The position numbers and the translations under genes were made by a program. A DNA stretch of 39,193 bases, taken from contig CALGTK010000135.1 in the NCBI GenBank assembly GCA_937904325.1, forward strand, positions 1 through 39,193, given 5' to 3'. Positions 32,952-38,854 of this stretch are shown here, piece by piece. This DNA is from an uncultured Planctomyces sp. Its GTDB lineage: Bacteria; Planctomycetota; Planctomycetia; Planctomycetales; Planctomycetaceae. Numbering within the stretch: position 1 is the stretch's first letter; each line of letters begins with the position of its first letter. The notes under the pieces are model-generated. The model saw only the letters and a program-made list of their open reading frames with translations, was not told the origin of the DNA and did not search any database.

Positions 32952-33938
32952 ATGCCCATGCCAATCGGTCATCAGCACGCTTCGTGTATTTTCTGTTTAG
33001 CAAGTGCTTTGTTGAACGCTGCCAGCTTGAATGCGCAAGAGAAATCAGCACAGACTGTAGACGGCAATTCGGTTGTTCGTGCTCCGTTGGGCGATTCGGA
33101 GATCGTAATAAGGACGACGTCGCGATTGGCTGGAGCGATCGATTCTTTGACCTGGAACGGGCAGGAATTCATCAACAGCGCCGATCACGGACGGCAGTTG
33201 CAGTCGGCGGCGAATCTGGACTTCGGGTCGACGATGACTCCCGAGTCGTTTAATCCAACCGAAGCCGGATCACGACTGGACGGTGCCGGGAAGGCTTCGA
33301 CGAGCCAGTTGCGGCATCTCATTGCGGACGGAAACCGGCTTCAGACAACGAGCCTGATGGCGTTCTGGCTGGCTCCAGGTCAGAAGTCTGGCGGCATTCA
33401 TCTCGCCAAAAACAAAACGAAGCTTTCGAACCATCTGCTGACCAAACACGTGCAGATTGGGTGGAAGAATCTGCCCAACGTGATCTCGTACGATGTAACG
33501 TTCGGGCTGCCGATCAACGAGCATCATCGATATGCGCAGTTCGAAGTTTTGACCGGTTATATGCCGCCGGAGTTCGAATCGTTTTTAAAGTTCAATCCGG
33601 ACTCGAGCGAGTTTGAATCATTGACGGACGGCCCTGGTGAGCAGAAGTGGCCGGTCGCTCTTTCAACAACGGATGGACGATTCGCGATGGGCATTTACAC
33701 GCCAAATCGACCGGGAGAAAACTGGACCGGTCCGGGCTATGGACGTTTTCGGTTCCGCCCACAGAAGGTCGTCAAATGGAATTGCGTCTTCCGATATCGC
33801 GTGGCAAAGGGCGTGCTTCCGGGTGACTACTCATTTCGGACGTTCGTGATCGTCGGGACGCGCGAAATGGTTCAATCAGCAATGCAACGTCTACATGAAG
33901 AGCCGGTTTCGACACTCAGGCAAGATTCCGCTGGTTAG
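32952..33938 (+). CDS. secreted protein of unknown function
   Basis: I do not recognise this 328-residue protein. It has a signal peptide (CIFCLASALLNAASLNA). The body is rich in beta-strand and aromatic residues, with AGAIDSLTWNGQEFINSADH early, then FGLPINEHHRYAQFEVLTGYMPPEF, KWPVALSTTDGRFAMGIYTP, and GRFRFRPQKVVKWNCVFRYR late. The pattern suggests a beta-sandwich of the galactose-mutarotase or glycan-binding type, but no catalytic motif is seen. It starts 23 bases after the CXXCH-hydrolase gene, so the two likely form one transcript, perhaps with the ThuA gene, as a small exported sugar-processing group. Its stop overlaps the stop of the convergent DUF1559 gene. Confidence 0.75.
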   Translation: MPMPIGHQHASCIFCLASALLNAASLNAQEKSAQTVDGNSVVRAPLGDSEIVIRTTSRLAGAIDSLTWNGQEFINSADHGRQLQSAANLDFGSTMTPESFNPTEAGSRLDGAGKASTSQLRHLIADGNRLQTTSLMAFWLAPGQKSGGIHLAKNKTKLSNHLLTKHVQIGWKNLPNVISYDVTFGLPINEHHRYAQFEVLTGYMPPEFESFLKFNPDSSEFESLTDGPGEQKWPVALSTTDGRFAMGIYTPNRPGENWTGPGYGRFRFRPQKVVKWNCVFRYRVAKGVLPGDYSFRTFVIVGTREMVQSAMQRLHEEPVSTLRQDSAG

Positions 33939-35470
33939 TCACCGGCGTTGCGAGTTGCCAGACGCTGAAGAACTTTGGTAGACGTCTTGTTCGAGAAGAA
34001 TCGGACACTGCCGTCTCCTTGAAGAAAATGGGCTCCGGTTCCCGCGGCGTTTCCGAAGCTTGACAGTCGTTTGTTGAGCGGGCCTTCGATGGTTCTCCAG
34101 TTTTCAGGATTGCCCCAGGCAGGAAGTGCCCTCGCGATTTCACCAGCAATCAGAGTTTGCGACATCCCGTCTAAGACATCTGCGGTTCTGATCGCGGAGT
34201 TCTTGTTGAAAATTCCGGTCGGTAGCAGGCCCAGGTCAGTTTGAATGAGGCCGCCGACGCCGGCGAAGTGAGTTGTTGCCAGGCCTCGTGCAGTTGGCTT
34301 GTGCTCCATCGTTGGAAGCAGAAAAGTAGTGACCGGTTGTTGCATTGCAGACGCGTTTGCTTCGTCGTTCCAGGGTTTTGAAAGCTGGATTGAATCGTAA
34401 ATTTCCATATGTCCGAGGTACGGAAGCAATGATGTCATCCAACTGTGCATGCCAGTTTCCATACCTTCGTCGTCGACGGCAAAAGTTCCACCGGCTGGAA
34501 ACTGACCTTTTTCGATGGCGTAGTCACCCAGAGCTTTGTTGATGCTGCTGAGATTCGATTCGATGACTTCTTTAGCCGAGCGGTTTCGCCATGACTCGCC
34601 GAGTTCGTTCAGGTAGGCCGGTCCGGCGAAGATGCCAACCAATCCGAGCAGCAATCCGACAGGAGCCAGCATTTGCGGAGCTGACTCTTTAAGTCGACGG
34701 TTGGAACCGAGAGTTTGATAGCCGAGCAGCAGTGCGTAGCTTCCCACAAGCGTTGCGGGGAATTTGGCGAGCATTGCTGGCAACAGGCAAAGTCCGCAAA
34801 GGAGCACCGACAAAACTCCCGCTACAACCGAACCCGTGCCTCGCGGAAACTTTGGTGAGCTTTCGGAATCGGCCGATGCGTCGTCGGTTGATCGTGAGAA
34901 ATCTGCCGTGTCGAGATCGCGCAGCGGAGAATCGACTTCCCAGCCGTCTTCCTCATCGTCATCCGCGAGCGAGAAATCGTCGTCGGATAGATCGTCATCG
35001 AAATCTGAGGGGTCGTCTGAGCCTGCGAACTCGGAGTCCAATTCTGAAACGTCATCGTCTTCGTTCGCAGGGTCATCTTTATTCTGAGCGAAAGATTCCG
35101 AGATGTCTTCGTCATTCTCGGGTGACGCCGCATCTTCAGCCTGTGATGCCCCCATCATGGCCCACAGGCCGCGAGGTTGTCCGTTGGGCTCTGGTGTCTC
35201 TGCTGTTGCAGATGCTTCTTCGAAAGTGGCTGAACCTGCACCATCACTTTCGTCCGCATCGTCAACTTCTGATGAAGCCTCGTCAGTCGCCGGTCGCCCC
35301 ATGACTTCCCACAGACTGCGAGCGGAGCCTGCCGGCGAAGCGGCGTTTCCGATTGACACCTCTGAGCCGCATTTCGGGCACGCGAGACTTCCGCTCGATG
35401 GTTCTTGCGTCTCCGCTTCGAAGGTGTGGCCATTCGGGCAAATGACGGTTTGGGCGTTGGAGTCAGGCAT
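33935..35470 (-). CDS. zinc-ribbon, acidic linker, membrane and DUF1559 protein
   Basis: The 511-residue product starts with a zinc-ribbon-like segment holding CPNGH (about 11) and CPKCG (about 32). A very acidic Ser/Asp/Glu-rich region (about 50-210) follows, in which a short LW-x-x-MG unit occurs twice (SLWEVMG, GLWAMMG). Three hydrophobic helices lie at about 215-300 (SVVAGVLSVLLCGLCLLPAM, LVGSYALLLGYQTLG, MLAPVGLLLGLVGIFAG). The rest is DUF1559 (SBP_bac_10), a planctomycete pseudopilin-like domain, with SWMTSLLPYLGHMEIYDSI, LDGMSQTLIAGEIARALP and a closing HFLQGDGSVRFFSNKT. The canonical N-terminal prepilin signal of DUF1559 proteins is replaced by the zinc-ribbon and multi-span part. Function unknown. 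Confidence 0.83.
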   Translation of the reverse strand: MPDSNAQTVICPNGHTFEAETQEPSSGSLACPKCGSEVSIGNAASPAGSARSLWEVMGRPATDEASSEVDDADESDGAGSATFEEASATAETPEPNGQPRGLWAMMGASQAEDAASPENDEDISESFAQNKDDPANEDDDVSELDSEFAGSDDPSDFDDDLSDDDFSLADDDEEDGWEVDSPLRDLDTADFSRSTDDASADSESSPKFPRGTGSVVAGVLSVLLCGLCLLPAMLAKFPATLVGSYALLLGYQTLGSNRRLKESAPQMLAPVGLLLGLVGIFAGPAYLNELGESWRNRSAKEVIESNLSSINKALGDYAIEKGQFPAGGTFAVDDEGMETGMHSWMTSLLPYLGHMEIYDSIQLSKPWNDEANASAMQQPVTTFLLPTMEHKPTARGLATTHFAGVGGLIQTDLGLLPTGIFNKNSAIRTADVLDGMSQTLIAGEIARALPAWGNPENWRTIEGPLNKRLSSFGNAAGTGAHFLQGDGSVRFFSNKTSTKVLQRLATRNAGD

Positions 35471-35554: not shown

Positions 35555-36502
35555 TCACGTTGGCTTGTGTAGACGCGAGCTGACGTCGCGGAGGCGGCTG
35601 ACCTGCTGGATCAACCGTGGCAGCCCGTCAAGTCCCATGAGAAGAAGCATGAGGTAGCGGAAGACGGCGAAGATGTCGCCTGCCTGGACGGTCGAAAGGT
35701 GGCACGCTCGGAACAGAACCGCGACGATCGCTCCGAGAATGAAACATTCCATCAGACCGAAGTTGATGGCCTCGGCGTTGGAAAGCTTGATCCGCCAGCG
35801 TGCGACTTCGTCGAAGTGGTTTCTGATGTCGATCTCATTTTGAGCATGGATGACGTCGACCTCTTTTTCGAGTTCGTCATGTAAACCTCGGCTGAGACGA
35901 CGAGTCCACTTCGAATAGTGGTGACTGAGCAGCGCCGCCGGGATCAGTAATGCCAGACAGCAGGCGACGATCATCCAGTCGTACCACGCCAGCATGATTA
36001 CCGAACCGGCGACGGAGAATCCGACTTTCATCAGCATCGGGATTGAGTGTTCGAAGAATTCAACGAATTCGCGAGAAAGCGACGCACGCGCGGTGACGCG
36101 TGAGACGTCAACTCCGGATGCTCTCTGAGAAACAATCATTTGTGTGGCGAGGGCTGAGTAGATCGCTGAGAACATTCGCGTATCGTAAACCTGACGAACA
36201 AGACCGACTAAAAGATGCAAAACATGCTGCCCAATGAGCATGCCGACTCCGAGCATCTGCTCGTTCAGCAGATCGTTGATCGCCCAGCCCAGCGCAAACG
36301 GCTGAGCGAGACGGAGCAAATTCTCGATCGCGAACAGTGTGTAAGTAGCGAGAATTCCAAGTCGATTCTGTGTGAATAATGTTTTGAGGCGAAATGGAGA
36401 AGTGTCAAACATCGGTCGGCGGATGGCCGAGGGATTAGACTTAAGCGGAGTCGGAATCGGGCTGGCGTCAACGTGTGAAATGACTGGAATGTCGATGGGC
36501 AC
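35555..36502 (-). CDS. ABC-type six-helix transmembrane protein lacking an ATPase domain
   Basis: From GTG 36502, preceded by AGGAGG seven bases upstream, the product is 315 residues. After a Pro-rich N-terminus it has an exporter-type transmembrane domain. Helices are visible at LGILATYTLFAIENLLRLAQ, MLGVGMLIGQHVLHLLVGLV, MLMKVGFSVAGSVIMLAWYD, MIVACCLALLIPAALLSH, INFGLMECFILGAIVAVLF and VFRYLMLLLMGLDGLP, with long cytoplasmic helices between. The protein stops right after the last helix (QVSRLRDVSSRLHKPT). No Walker A/B or LSGGQ sequence follows: only 84 bases separate it from the next gene. It resembles the ABC six-transmembrane-domain family (PF13748-like). It is the last gene of the MNIO cluster, 82 bases after the partner gene, so it is a candidate exporter or receptor for the modified peptide. 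Confidence 0.78.
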   Translation of the reverse strand: MPIDIPVISHVDASPIPTPLKSNPSAIRRPMFDTSPFRLKTLFTQNRLGILATYTLFAIENLLRLAQPFALGWAINDLLNEQMLGVGMLIGQHVLHLLVGLVRQVYDTRMFSAIYSALATQMIVSQRASGVDVSRVTARASLSREFVEFFEHSIPMLMKVGFSVAGSVIMLAWYDWMIVACCLALLIPAALLSHHYSKWTRRLSRGLHDELEKEVDVIHAQNEIDIRNHFDEVARWRIKLSNAEAINFGLMECFILGAIVAVLFRACHLSTVQAGDIFAVFRYLMLLLMGLDGLPRLIQQVSRLRDVSSRLHKPT

Positions 36503-36584
36503 CGCACGTCCTCCTGAATTCATTTCGCTCTACTTCTTCTTGAACCGGGGCCCGTAAGCTTGACCTCAGCTGCTCACCGTCCAC

Positions 36585-37355
36585 TTAGCTGAAAGCGATG
36601 AGACCGACTTCGCTGCAGTCGTTCAGCATCTCCATGAGCGACTCGTCGTCGAACGACGTAGTCAGATCGAGTTGCTTTTTCAAACTTGCGAGCCGGCACG
36701 GGCCGATTTCAGAAAGCGTCTGCACGAGGGCTCGGCCTTCCCGTTCAAGAATCACCGTTCGTACTTCGGTTTGAAATGCGAAGAATAAAACTTCAACACC
36801 GTCAGCCGGCGATTCTTCCTCACCGATCAACAGGCCAGTTTCGAACACGGCTCGAGTTCTCATTGGGTTGAGATGAATTCTTAAACCTTCGTTCGACTCA
36901 AGTTCTGAAACGAGTCGGTCGTTCAGACTGGCCAGTTCCTGGAACCTGACATGACCGAGACGGTTTCGTCGTCCTGCTTCTTCAACGGTGAACCGACTCT
37001 TGATGACCAGAATAAGATCCCGTTGCTCTGGAGTCAGCTTGATGACCGTCGGCAACCAGCGGACGAAGCGGTCCGTATCGCTGGTGCCGGTGTCGTACGC
37101 GGCGAGGGGAATTTCTCGGATGTACCGGCTGATCAGGCCGGGCAACTCTTCCATGGTCTCTGCAAACATGTCGAGCTGGTCGTTCAGTTTGTCGGCACGC
37201 TTGTCGAGATTTCCCGACGTAAACATCTCGACGAGACAGCACGACTGTCCCGCAGCAACGTCGCCGTGTACGACGCCGTTCTTTGCAACTGCCAGCGACG
37301 TGGCGATGCGCGAAAGTTGTTCCGTGTAATCTTTTAAGAGAGTGTTGTCACTCAT
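36585..37355 (-). CDS. putative MNIO partner protein
   Basis: I do not recognise this 256-residue protein by sequence. ATG 37355 overlaps the MNIO stop codon as ATGA, so translation of the two is coupled, as for known MNIO partner proteins (MbnC, TglI, BufC). It is soluble and mostly helical (1-150; DYTEQLSRIATSLAVAKNG, DKRADKLNDQLDMFAETMEE). It has a Cys pair at 39-40 (GQSCCLVEMF) and two further Cys at 220 and 247. The last 50 residues (ALVQTLSEIGPCRLASLKKQ onward) look like a winged helix, the fold type that often binds RiPP leaders. It shows no evident DUF2063 pattern. The role as leader-binding partner is inferred from position. Confidence 0.75.
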   Translation of the reverse strand: MSDNTLLKDYTEQLSRIATSLAVAKNGVVHGDVAAGQSCCLVEMFTSGNLDKRADKLNDQLDMFAETMEELPGLISRYIREIPLAAYDTGTSDTDRFVRWLPTVIKLTPEQRDLILVIKSRFTVEEAGRRNRLGHVRFQELASLNDRLVSELESNEGLRIHLNPMRTRAVFETGLLIGEEESPADGVEVLFFAFQTEVRTVILEREGRALVQTLSEIGPCRLASLKKQLDLTTSFDDESLMEMLNDCSEVGLIAFS

Positions 37356-38194
37356 GCTGACACCTCGGCCTGTTCTGCGATTTCGCGAACGCGGCGAATT
37401 TCTGATCGCCAACCGGCTTCGTCCGGGAAGTCCTGGTCGCGCTCGACGAAGACCGCATCCACTTTGCCACGGCCCTTCTCGAGCGAAAACCGATACAAAT
37501 CCCAGACCGTGTCGGGAATCGGTTCGGAGTGACTGTCGATGTACATTTTCGATCGTTCGTCGAAGAAGCCACCAGCCAGGTGCATTTGCACAGACTCGGC
37601 GTGCGGCATCACGGACTCGATGAATTCGTACGCGTCGAAATTAAAGTTCTGCGCGTTGGCGTAAACGTTGGTGACGTCGAGCAGCCAGCCGCAGCCCGTA
37701 CACTTCAGCATTTTCGAGACGAAGTCGGCTTCGGACATCGTGCCTTGAAATTCGAACATGTACGCGATCGTTTCAACGTAAAAGCGAGTGTCGCCAAGTC
37801 GCTTCTGAATGTGGTCGATGTTTCTGCAGGTTGCGGTTAACGCGGCTTCGGTCCACGGCGGCGGAGCGAAGTGCCCCATTTCAACGCCGTTGTCGCCGTT
37901 TCGAGTAAAGCCGAGATGATCGCTGACGGAAGATGCTCCGTTTTCGATGGCGATCGCTCGGAGGGCTTCGAGGTAGGTTTGATTCGGTGGTTCCGGGCTG
38001 GCGACAGAAAGTTTCAATGCGTGAACGCTGACATGGTCGATGTCCAGATCCTGAAGGTAGCGGTCGACTCGGAGTGGATCGTCGGCTCGTTCGAAGGTGA
38101 TTTCGGCGGCGTTGATCGCCGGGTCGTCCATGATTGGCCGATTCTGCTCGCGAATTGCATATCCGATGGCGGGGGTTGTGGCGGAATCGTGCAC
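37352..38194 (-). CDS. DUF692 multinuclear non-haem iron oxidase (MNIO)
   Basis: From GTG 38194, with AGGAG six bases upstream, the product is 280 residues, the normal DUF692 length. The TIM-barrel pattern runs from AIGYAIREQN at the start. Expected metal-ligand regions are present: VSVHALKLS (His58), SDHLGF (Asp92, His93), YVETIAY (Glu141), LLDVTNVYANAQNFNFD (Asp173, Asn176), QMHLAGG (His205), YIDSHSEPIPDTVW (Asp220, His222) and FVERDQDFP (Glu251, Asp253). The usual ENP(S)-type motif is ETI here. DUF692 enzymes use a di- or tri-iron centre to oxidise Cys (or Asp, Asn) in precursor peptides. The upstream Cys-rich peptide is the obvious substrate. The partner gene overlaps its stop. Confidence 0.93.
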   Translation of the reverse strand: MHDSATTPAIGYAIREQNRPIMDDPAINAAEITFERADDPLRVDRYLQDLDIDHVSVHALKLSVASPEPPNQTYLEALRAIAIENGASSVSDHLGFTRNGDNGVEMGHFAPPPWTEAALTATCRNIDHIQKRLGDTRFYVETIAYMFEFQGTMSEADFVSKMLKCTGCGWLLDVTNVYANAQNFNFDAYEFIESVMPHAESVQMHLAGGFFDERSKMYIDSHSEPIPDTVWDLYRFSLEKGRGKVDAVFVERDQDFPDEAGWRSEIRRVREIAEQAEVSA

Positions 38195-38260
38195 GGCTGG
38201 CTCCTGTCGAAATTCTGCTGACGGCTTAACAGGTCGAAGATACAAATCCAAAATCAACTG

Positions 38261-38294
38261 CCGTGCTGACAACCGGTGTCTGGTATCAGCCCGG
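38261..38294 (-). promoter_or_regulatory. imperfect hairpin between precursor and MNIO genes
   Basis: In the 123-base spacer the minus strand reads CCGGGCTGATACC, loop AGACACC, then GGTTGTCAGCACGG. It pairs as an imperfect stem with CCG/CGG, GCTGA/TCAGC and ACC/GGT helices. Without a T-run it could be a partial terminator or RNA-stability element, giving more precursor than enzyme mRNA. Confidence 0.4.
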
Positions 38295-38317
38295 CAGTCG
38301 GATTTCGAGTCGCCGAT

Positions 38318-38455
38318 TTACCAGCGACAACGACAGCAGCGACAGCAACGGCAGCAGCAACGGCTGGCGGCCGCTTTCTTTGCTCGTTCTGAAGTCCGCA
38401 GCGATTTAATTTCGCGAACGGCTCTCTGTCTTTTTTGAGTGGCTGAGTTCGTCAT
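38318..38455 (-). CDS. putative MNIO RiPP precursor peptide, Cys-rich core
   Basis: ATG 38455, preceded by GGAGAGGA, opens a 45-residue peptide. Residues 1-32 are hydrophilic and very basic (MTNSATQKRQRAVREIKSLR, then TSERAKKAAASR), with no signal peptide; this would be the leader. Residues 33-45 are CCCRCCRCCRCRW: eight Cys with single Arg spacers and a terminal Trp, the likely core. The gene is 123 bases upstream of the DUF692 gene on the same strand. The frame could be extended to 38545, but those codons precede the strong ribosome site. The core is encoded by a TGC/TGT/CGN-rich run, so a low-complexity artefact is the alternative. The peptide could bind metal, be oxidised to thiooxazole-type rings, or both. 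Confidence 0.72.
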   Translation of the reverse strand: MTNSATQKRQRAVREIKSLRTSERAKKAAASRCCCRCCRCCRCRW

Positions 38456-38854
38456 GGGGATTTCCTCTCCATCGTGCCTCAAGCTGACCAGTTTCTGTCT
38501 TCGCACCACACAGGGGCGGTCCGCTTGAGACGTCACCGTGTACAACGTCGACCAGAGAACACCTCAGCCGACATTCCGGAAAGCTCCGGATTTACGATGG
38601 TCCACAGAAGGCACGAGCGATGCCCGAATCACAGAAGAAATAAGCGTGAAACTTCCTAACTTGTTGTTGTCAAGTGAGTTGTCGAGTTCTCAGAAACTGC
38701 CCGGCGGTGAATCCATAGTGAACTGGTAGTTGTCAGAGCGACCACAGAGGCAGTCCGACTGACGACATTTCGAGTGGATTCCGGCGAGATTTTCTCCAAC
38801 GGCAACCGCACGCTGTTCGCGTCAGGAAACTTCGAGAGCTTGAGGCGACGGGTC

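Follow-up and report, generated by a model that had tools for sequence, protein, structure and literature searches.

Enzymes of the MNIO superfamily (DUF692, PF05114) continue to yield new peptide chemistry; according to the sections of PMC12452194 consulted, many of their substrates are still unassigned, and precursor assignment is hazardous when small frames are absent. In the bufferin and EGKCG/oxazolin systems (BufABC, HvfABC, MmrABC), genes for an MNIO and for a partner with a DUF2063 plus RRE fold follow the gene of a precursor that has a signal peptide, a DUF2282 or EGKCG signature and multiple Cys in short repeats, and DoxX and a DUF2063 signature are also theirs. Thiooxazole or oxazolone-thioamide chemistry, with 4H lost per Cys, is known for one MNIO/DUF2063 pair that acts on Cys repeats (PMC12538549). 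In the TglHI pathway to 3-thiaglutamate (pearlin), the partner TglI has the same two-domain fold, and the precursor, TglA, has no signal peptide and bears one added C-terminal Cys. Signal-peptide-less precursors accompany partners of the type designated PME-type 2 in the consulted sections of PMC12452194, as documented there for the adjamnio families (TIGR04222; Antoine et al. 2025). Methanobactin is made with the MNIO MbnB. SbmA (SLiPT), an ATPase-less ABC-fold peptide transporter, has an ABC-exporter-like transmembrane domain (TMD) without a nucleotide-binding domain.

The locus described here lies in a 39,193-nt stretch of DNA from an uncultured Planctomyces sp. (the window). All four minus-strand frames proposed in the first-pass annotation, for a precursor, an MNIO, a partner and a membrane protein, are present, and this gene order is retained in other genera while the outer neighbours change; the next gene after the membrane protein gene (33935-35470) encodes a DUF1559 protein and does not accompany the unit in other genera. 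No protease gene was noticed beside the unit, and neither a metal gene nor a metal box was seen near it. We interpret the locus, with a probability of about 0.7, as encoding a new signal-peptide-less MNIO-RiPP family, with leader-RRE docking, Cys oxidation, soft-metal binding, and transport or receipt by the ABC-type protein. If true, this would be a dedicated Planctomycetes RiPP family whose ABC-type membrane protein, lacking an ATPase, is unusual. The precursor family appears to be undescribed, the enzyme superfamily and partner type being already known: no description of a planctomycete or Cys-Cys-Arg MNIO precursor was found in the open-access literature, nor a planctomycete, CCR-type or <50-aa family in the consulted sections of PMC12452194, and the term 'ABC transporter' was not found in the main text of that paper.

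The precursor gene (38318..38455, minus strand) encodes 45 aa, MTNSATQKRQRAVREIKSLRTSERAKKAAASRCCCRCCRCCRCRW, and has AGAGG upstream, in agreement with the ribosome site originally noted. Residues 1-32 constitute the leader, with the motif VREIKSLRT at 38393-38419 (minus strand), and are followed by the C-terminal core, CCCRCCRCCRCRW (38321-38359, minus strand). This core had been read as CC-R-CC-R-CC-R-C; the repeat is as described, but the core starts with CCC and so contains one more Cys (CCC-R-CC-R-CC-R-C-R-W). Read from its sequence, the precursor is charged and has no hydrophobic stretch and no signal peptide, and EGKCG repeats are absent from all aligned precursors, both as anticipated. 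A profile built from the first 21 precursors identified 34 homologues at E<1e-9, in 30 of the 170 genomes of the order. Within the window's genus, pN/pS values of 0.05-0.27 indicate that changes in the precursor are mostly at silent sites, and values of 0.00-0.10 were obtained in a second genus. Given these homologues, the purifying selection and the co-occurrence with the MNIO clade documented below, the frame is a real gene and a chance frame is ruled out. Pfam/NCBIfam searches with the precursor returned no family match, including to the DUF2282 or Buf2 precursor signature; a match to DUF2477 (E 0.011, below the cut-off) was read as noise from the Cys composition. Genome G060 has three precursors in tandem; in G087 there are two, neither of them on the contig that carries the MNIO gene.

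RiPP precursors are recognized by a conserved leader joined to a variable core. Alignments of the precursors give the consensus KKxVREL..LRT....KK.AERHRCCRCCRCCR, with the leader motif [VI]REL..LRT conserved and the core differing in both the number and the type of its repeats. The number of RCC units varies in frame, and the core types seen are RCC repeats, (LERCGR)n, CRRG/CNRG repeats, FCRGCRRC.. and AFCHGCHA. The same leader grammar precedes RCCRCCRCCRGGRRKKK in G500, CRRGCSRGCNRGCRRGCNRGC.. in G568/G675, FCRGCRRCRSCRRCRRCRC in G074, eight LERCGR-like units in G059, and AFCHGCHA at loci L036 and L038. The CC-R repeats highlighted in the first-pass annotation are not the defining feature; as some relatives combine the same leader with quite different Arg/Cys cores, it is the leader that defines the family. 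With a conserved leader, a variable core, and a modifying enzyme and RRE protein encoded alongside, these sequences are as expected for a family of RiPP precursors with a putative modification, and the distinct, signal-peptide-less class of MNIO-RiPP precursor suggested by the first-pass annotation is supported. Here selection, conservation and the leader motif together establish a short frame, and ~35 natural variants of the precursor, in which different Cys/Arg cores follow a common leader, form a set with which substrate rules, recognition of the leader by the RRE and the nature of the product could be tested in E. coli. In the loci with the AFCHGCHA variant, a secreted-looking repeat protein is encoded between the precursor and the MNIO (L036 2729-3943; L038 3021-3854).

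The MNIO clade is present in 34 of the 170 genomes of the order, a list drawn by hand from PF05114 matches with the tree as guide, and the genomes compared are mostly MAGs. MNIO-partner pairs lacking the Cys-rich frame had been singled out beforehand as the observation that would count against the proposal; the proposal withstands this test, the precursor being present in 30 of these 34 genomes, with the partner in 32 and the PF13748 membrane protein in 27. Hypergeometric p values for co-occurrence, calculated with kinship between genomes ignored, are 1e-22 to 1e-27 (~1e-24 for precursor and MNIO). One of the four MNIO-clade genomes without a precursor has a truncated contig. Beside the MNIO loci of G002, G006, G073, G709, G710 and G622:C124 (one of two in G622), no convincing precursor was found, and in G050-G052 and G087 the precursor is on a contig other than that of the MNIO.

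Such unlinked precursors, and the persistence of a precursor in two MAGs (G107, G108) in which an MNIO was not detected, would suit a Cys/Arg peptide that functions unmodified, as a cytosolic metallothionein-like or nucleic-acid-binding small protein, with the MNIO acting elsewhere; CC motifs can bind metal without modification. Strong co-occurrence, the usual adjacency of the two genes and the combination of conserved leader and variable core nevertheless make this improbable. The G107 and G108 precursors (L094, L113) have, moreover, decayed as expected after enzyme loss, with VRE changed to VTQ (VTQL) in the leader and the core Cys pairs reduced to RCG/RCD and RCS, a pattern that fits an enzyme-dependent constraint, short of proof.

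The enzyme of the preferred MNIO-RiPP reading (37352..38194, minus strand; 280 aa, probable GTG start) matches PF05114 with E=2.3e-54 (184.9 bits, cut-off 25), and the ligand motifs noted initially are present: H58, the DH of SDHL, the E of YVET, LDVTN, MHLAGG, IDSH and VERD. In alignments they are shared with 3bww and partly with TglH and MbnB, the ligands being assigned by motif alone. All NCBIfam MNIO scores are below the cut-offs; BufB is the best-scoring model (153.2 bits, cut-off 310), and the scores are lower for ApyH (75 bits, cut-off 400) and MbnB (32.5 bits, cut-off 325), the last separating the enzyme from that of methanobactin. Planctomycete BufB proteins score 361-370 bits against the same BufB model. 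Similarity to TglH is weak (PDB sequence E 1.5e-11). In a tree of 55 sequences, constructed without TglH, ApyH and MbnB, the enzyme belongs to a clade of its own with support of 100 and a long branch (1.93), separate from planctomycete BufB and from plasmid bufferin enzymes. A tblastn search of plasmids with the MNIO returned 351 records, all with <60% identity, and the five inspected are bufferin-like loci.

Multiple Cys in short repeats and the partner fold are common to this unit and the bufferin and EGKCG/oxazolin systems. The choice of BufB as best model and the shared order of precursor, MNIO and partner genes raise the alternative of a bufferin/oxazolin subtype that has lost its signal peptide but performs the same copper buffering, and so is no new class. 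We regard this as unlikely and already disfavoured, as the signal peptide, DUF2282 and EGKCG are all absent here, there are no DoxX or sigma/NrsF neighbours, the partner is without a DUF2063 Pfam signature, the MNIO tree splits the clades with full support, and a separate bufferin-type BufB is often encoded in the same genomes. The bufferin-type BufB homologue of G000 (C232:31601-32380; L001/L096) has one in-frame TGA in the matched frame. A very divergent PF05114 group from the same family (L202, L203, L204), also on a long branch, scores 41-45 bits against the clade profile.

The partner gene (36585..37355, minus strand; 256 aa) was confirmed to overlap the MNIO stop codon in an ATGA. None of 23 partner members has the DUF2063 Pfam signature, the partner matches no Pfam or NCBIfam family, and a sequence search of the PDB with it gave no match; matches came from fold comparison alone. 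In the AlphaFold2 model (pLDDT 88), a helical DUF2063-like domain (residues ~1-150) is predicted to precede an RRE-like winged helix (~155-255), and the model aligns over 191 residues with NGO1945 (3dee; Z 13.4) and over 224 with TglI (8hi7_A; Z 13.3). Structure comparison also matched the C-terminal domain to the RREs of TbtB (Z 9.2), NisB (Z 7.2) and McbB. The partner, originally taken to be of unknown type, thus has the DUF2063 plus RRE fold of NGO1945 and TglI, which fits the PME-type 2 class. As modelled, it agrees with the definition of PME-type 2 in the consulted sections of PMC12452194, having a DUF2063-like helical domain and an RRE fold but no DUF2063 Pfam signature, and its occurrence with a signal-peptide-less Cys precursor is as predicted by the rule in those sections. 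The adjamnio-I and -IV precursors, at 119-293 aa in those same sections, differ from the 45-aa precursor here, a separation drawn from their descriptions.

A profile search located partner relatives beyond the window genome's family in 7 genomes from 4 other families of the class. Partner homologues without an adjoining MNIO or precursor occur at L079, L082, L083, L102, L103, L105, L078, L081 and L104, and a search for precursors near such orphan partners found none that was convincing; at L079, L082, L102, L103 and L105 there is a common neighbour gene, isocitrate dehydrogenase-like by sequence. These orphans may have a second, MNIO-independent role, or be relics. At L085, in the single-contig genome G088, genes for a partner and an ABC-type protein are adjacent, and no PF05114 protein was detected genome-wide.

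The last gene of the unit (35555..36502, minus strand) encodes a six-helix, ABC-exporter-type transmembrane protein without a nucleotide-binding domain. Its reported AGGAGG site exists. The frame is open from ATG 36523, but the AGGAGG falls within it and would serve GTG 36502, which is the start conserved in relatives and the more likely one. The protein matches PF13748 (ABC_membrane_3) with E=1.5e-48 (165.7 bits, cut-off 27), its 322 aa are filled by long helices, and the AlphaFold2 model (pLDDT 74) matches the TMDs of ABC exporters (BmrA, E 3.9e-4; Z up to 18.6). The TMD without a nucleotide-binding domain is shared with SbmA, but the Pfam match differs, there being none to SbmA_BacA, and SbmA is absent among the structural matches listed. 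The ATPase-less ABC membrane protein of the first-pass annotation is therefore borne out in its fold and its lack of an ATPase, but not as a constant member of the unit; in some loci the gene is missing or non-adjacent, with ~17 kb separating it from the MNIO in G050 and G052, so that transport is not a general feature.

For the new MNIO-RiPP family, we envisage that a small precursor is made in excess and that its charged leader, [VI]REL..LRT, would dock on the partner's RRE; the partner would present the C-terminal Arg/Cys-repeat core to the MNIO iron centre. The MNIO would oxidise a number of Cys, the likeliest product being a heterocycle that bears a thiol, for example the thiooxazole formed by MNIOs of the bufferin and EGKCG types. 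Once mature, the strongly cationic peptide may bind a soft metal, copper being the metal guessed first, and the ATPase-less ABC-type protein, as a dimer, might move it across the inner membrane, or receive it there. Precursor excess, leader-RRE docking and Cys oxidation are proposed from family knowledge; the exact product, the metal and the direction of transport are guesses. A thiooxazole-like product and soft-metal binding are likewise guessed by analogy and, as the EGKCG unit differs from the paired adjacent Cys here, the thiooxazole is an extrapolation.

The same RiPP logic might instead involve another Cys reaction (TglHI-like beta-carbon excision, cross-links, or fused heterocycles at CC), with a cationic peptide product that serves as a signal, an antimicrobial or a membrane-active agent rather than as a metal binder. 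We consider this a possibility worth keeping in mind, at somewhat adverse odds. The partner is structurally as near to TglI as to NGO1945; the MNIO has its own clade below all NCBIfam cut-offs, the CC pairs and the density of Arg set the cores apart from the repeats described for known MNIO substrates, and a dedicated ABC-type TMD suits export or immunity. Conversely, BufB is the best NCBIfam model, far above MbnB, with TglH compared via PDB sequence matches only, and the LERCGR-repeat cores resemble the EGKCG repeat type. The Arg/Cys repeat here is ribosomally encoded, unlike the added Cys of TglA. We suggest tentatively that the unit may represent a Planctomycetes RiPP class with a new MNIO/RRE-partner reaction on Cys-Cys in Arg-rich repeats, one leader grammar, unrelated cores and ATPase-less ABC-type delivery.

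Directly 3' of the precursor stop codon, between the precursor and MNIO genes, there is a hairpin (38257..38298, minus strand; ACTGCCGGGCTGAT..GTCAGCACGGCAGT, then TGATTTT) with a z-score of -4.1 in the window; of 12 loci folded, 10 give -3.2 or lower. It is likely a partial intrinsic terminator, and as such would leave the precursor mRNA in excess. Upstream of the precursor gene, ~105-135 nt 5' of its start, is a conserved 31-bp element (38560..38590, minus strand; TCCGGAGCTTTCCGGAATGTCGGCTGAGGTG); an Rfam search with this element and the hairpin gave no match. The pattern of the upstream element, TCCGGA-N4-CCGGA..GTCGGCTGAGGTG, has a single occurrence in every genome of the genus (6/6), always at the precursor locus, with no occurrence of a control pattern, consistent with a putative control element.
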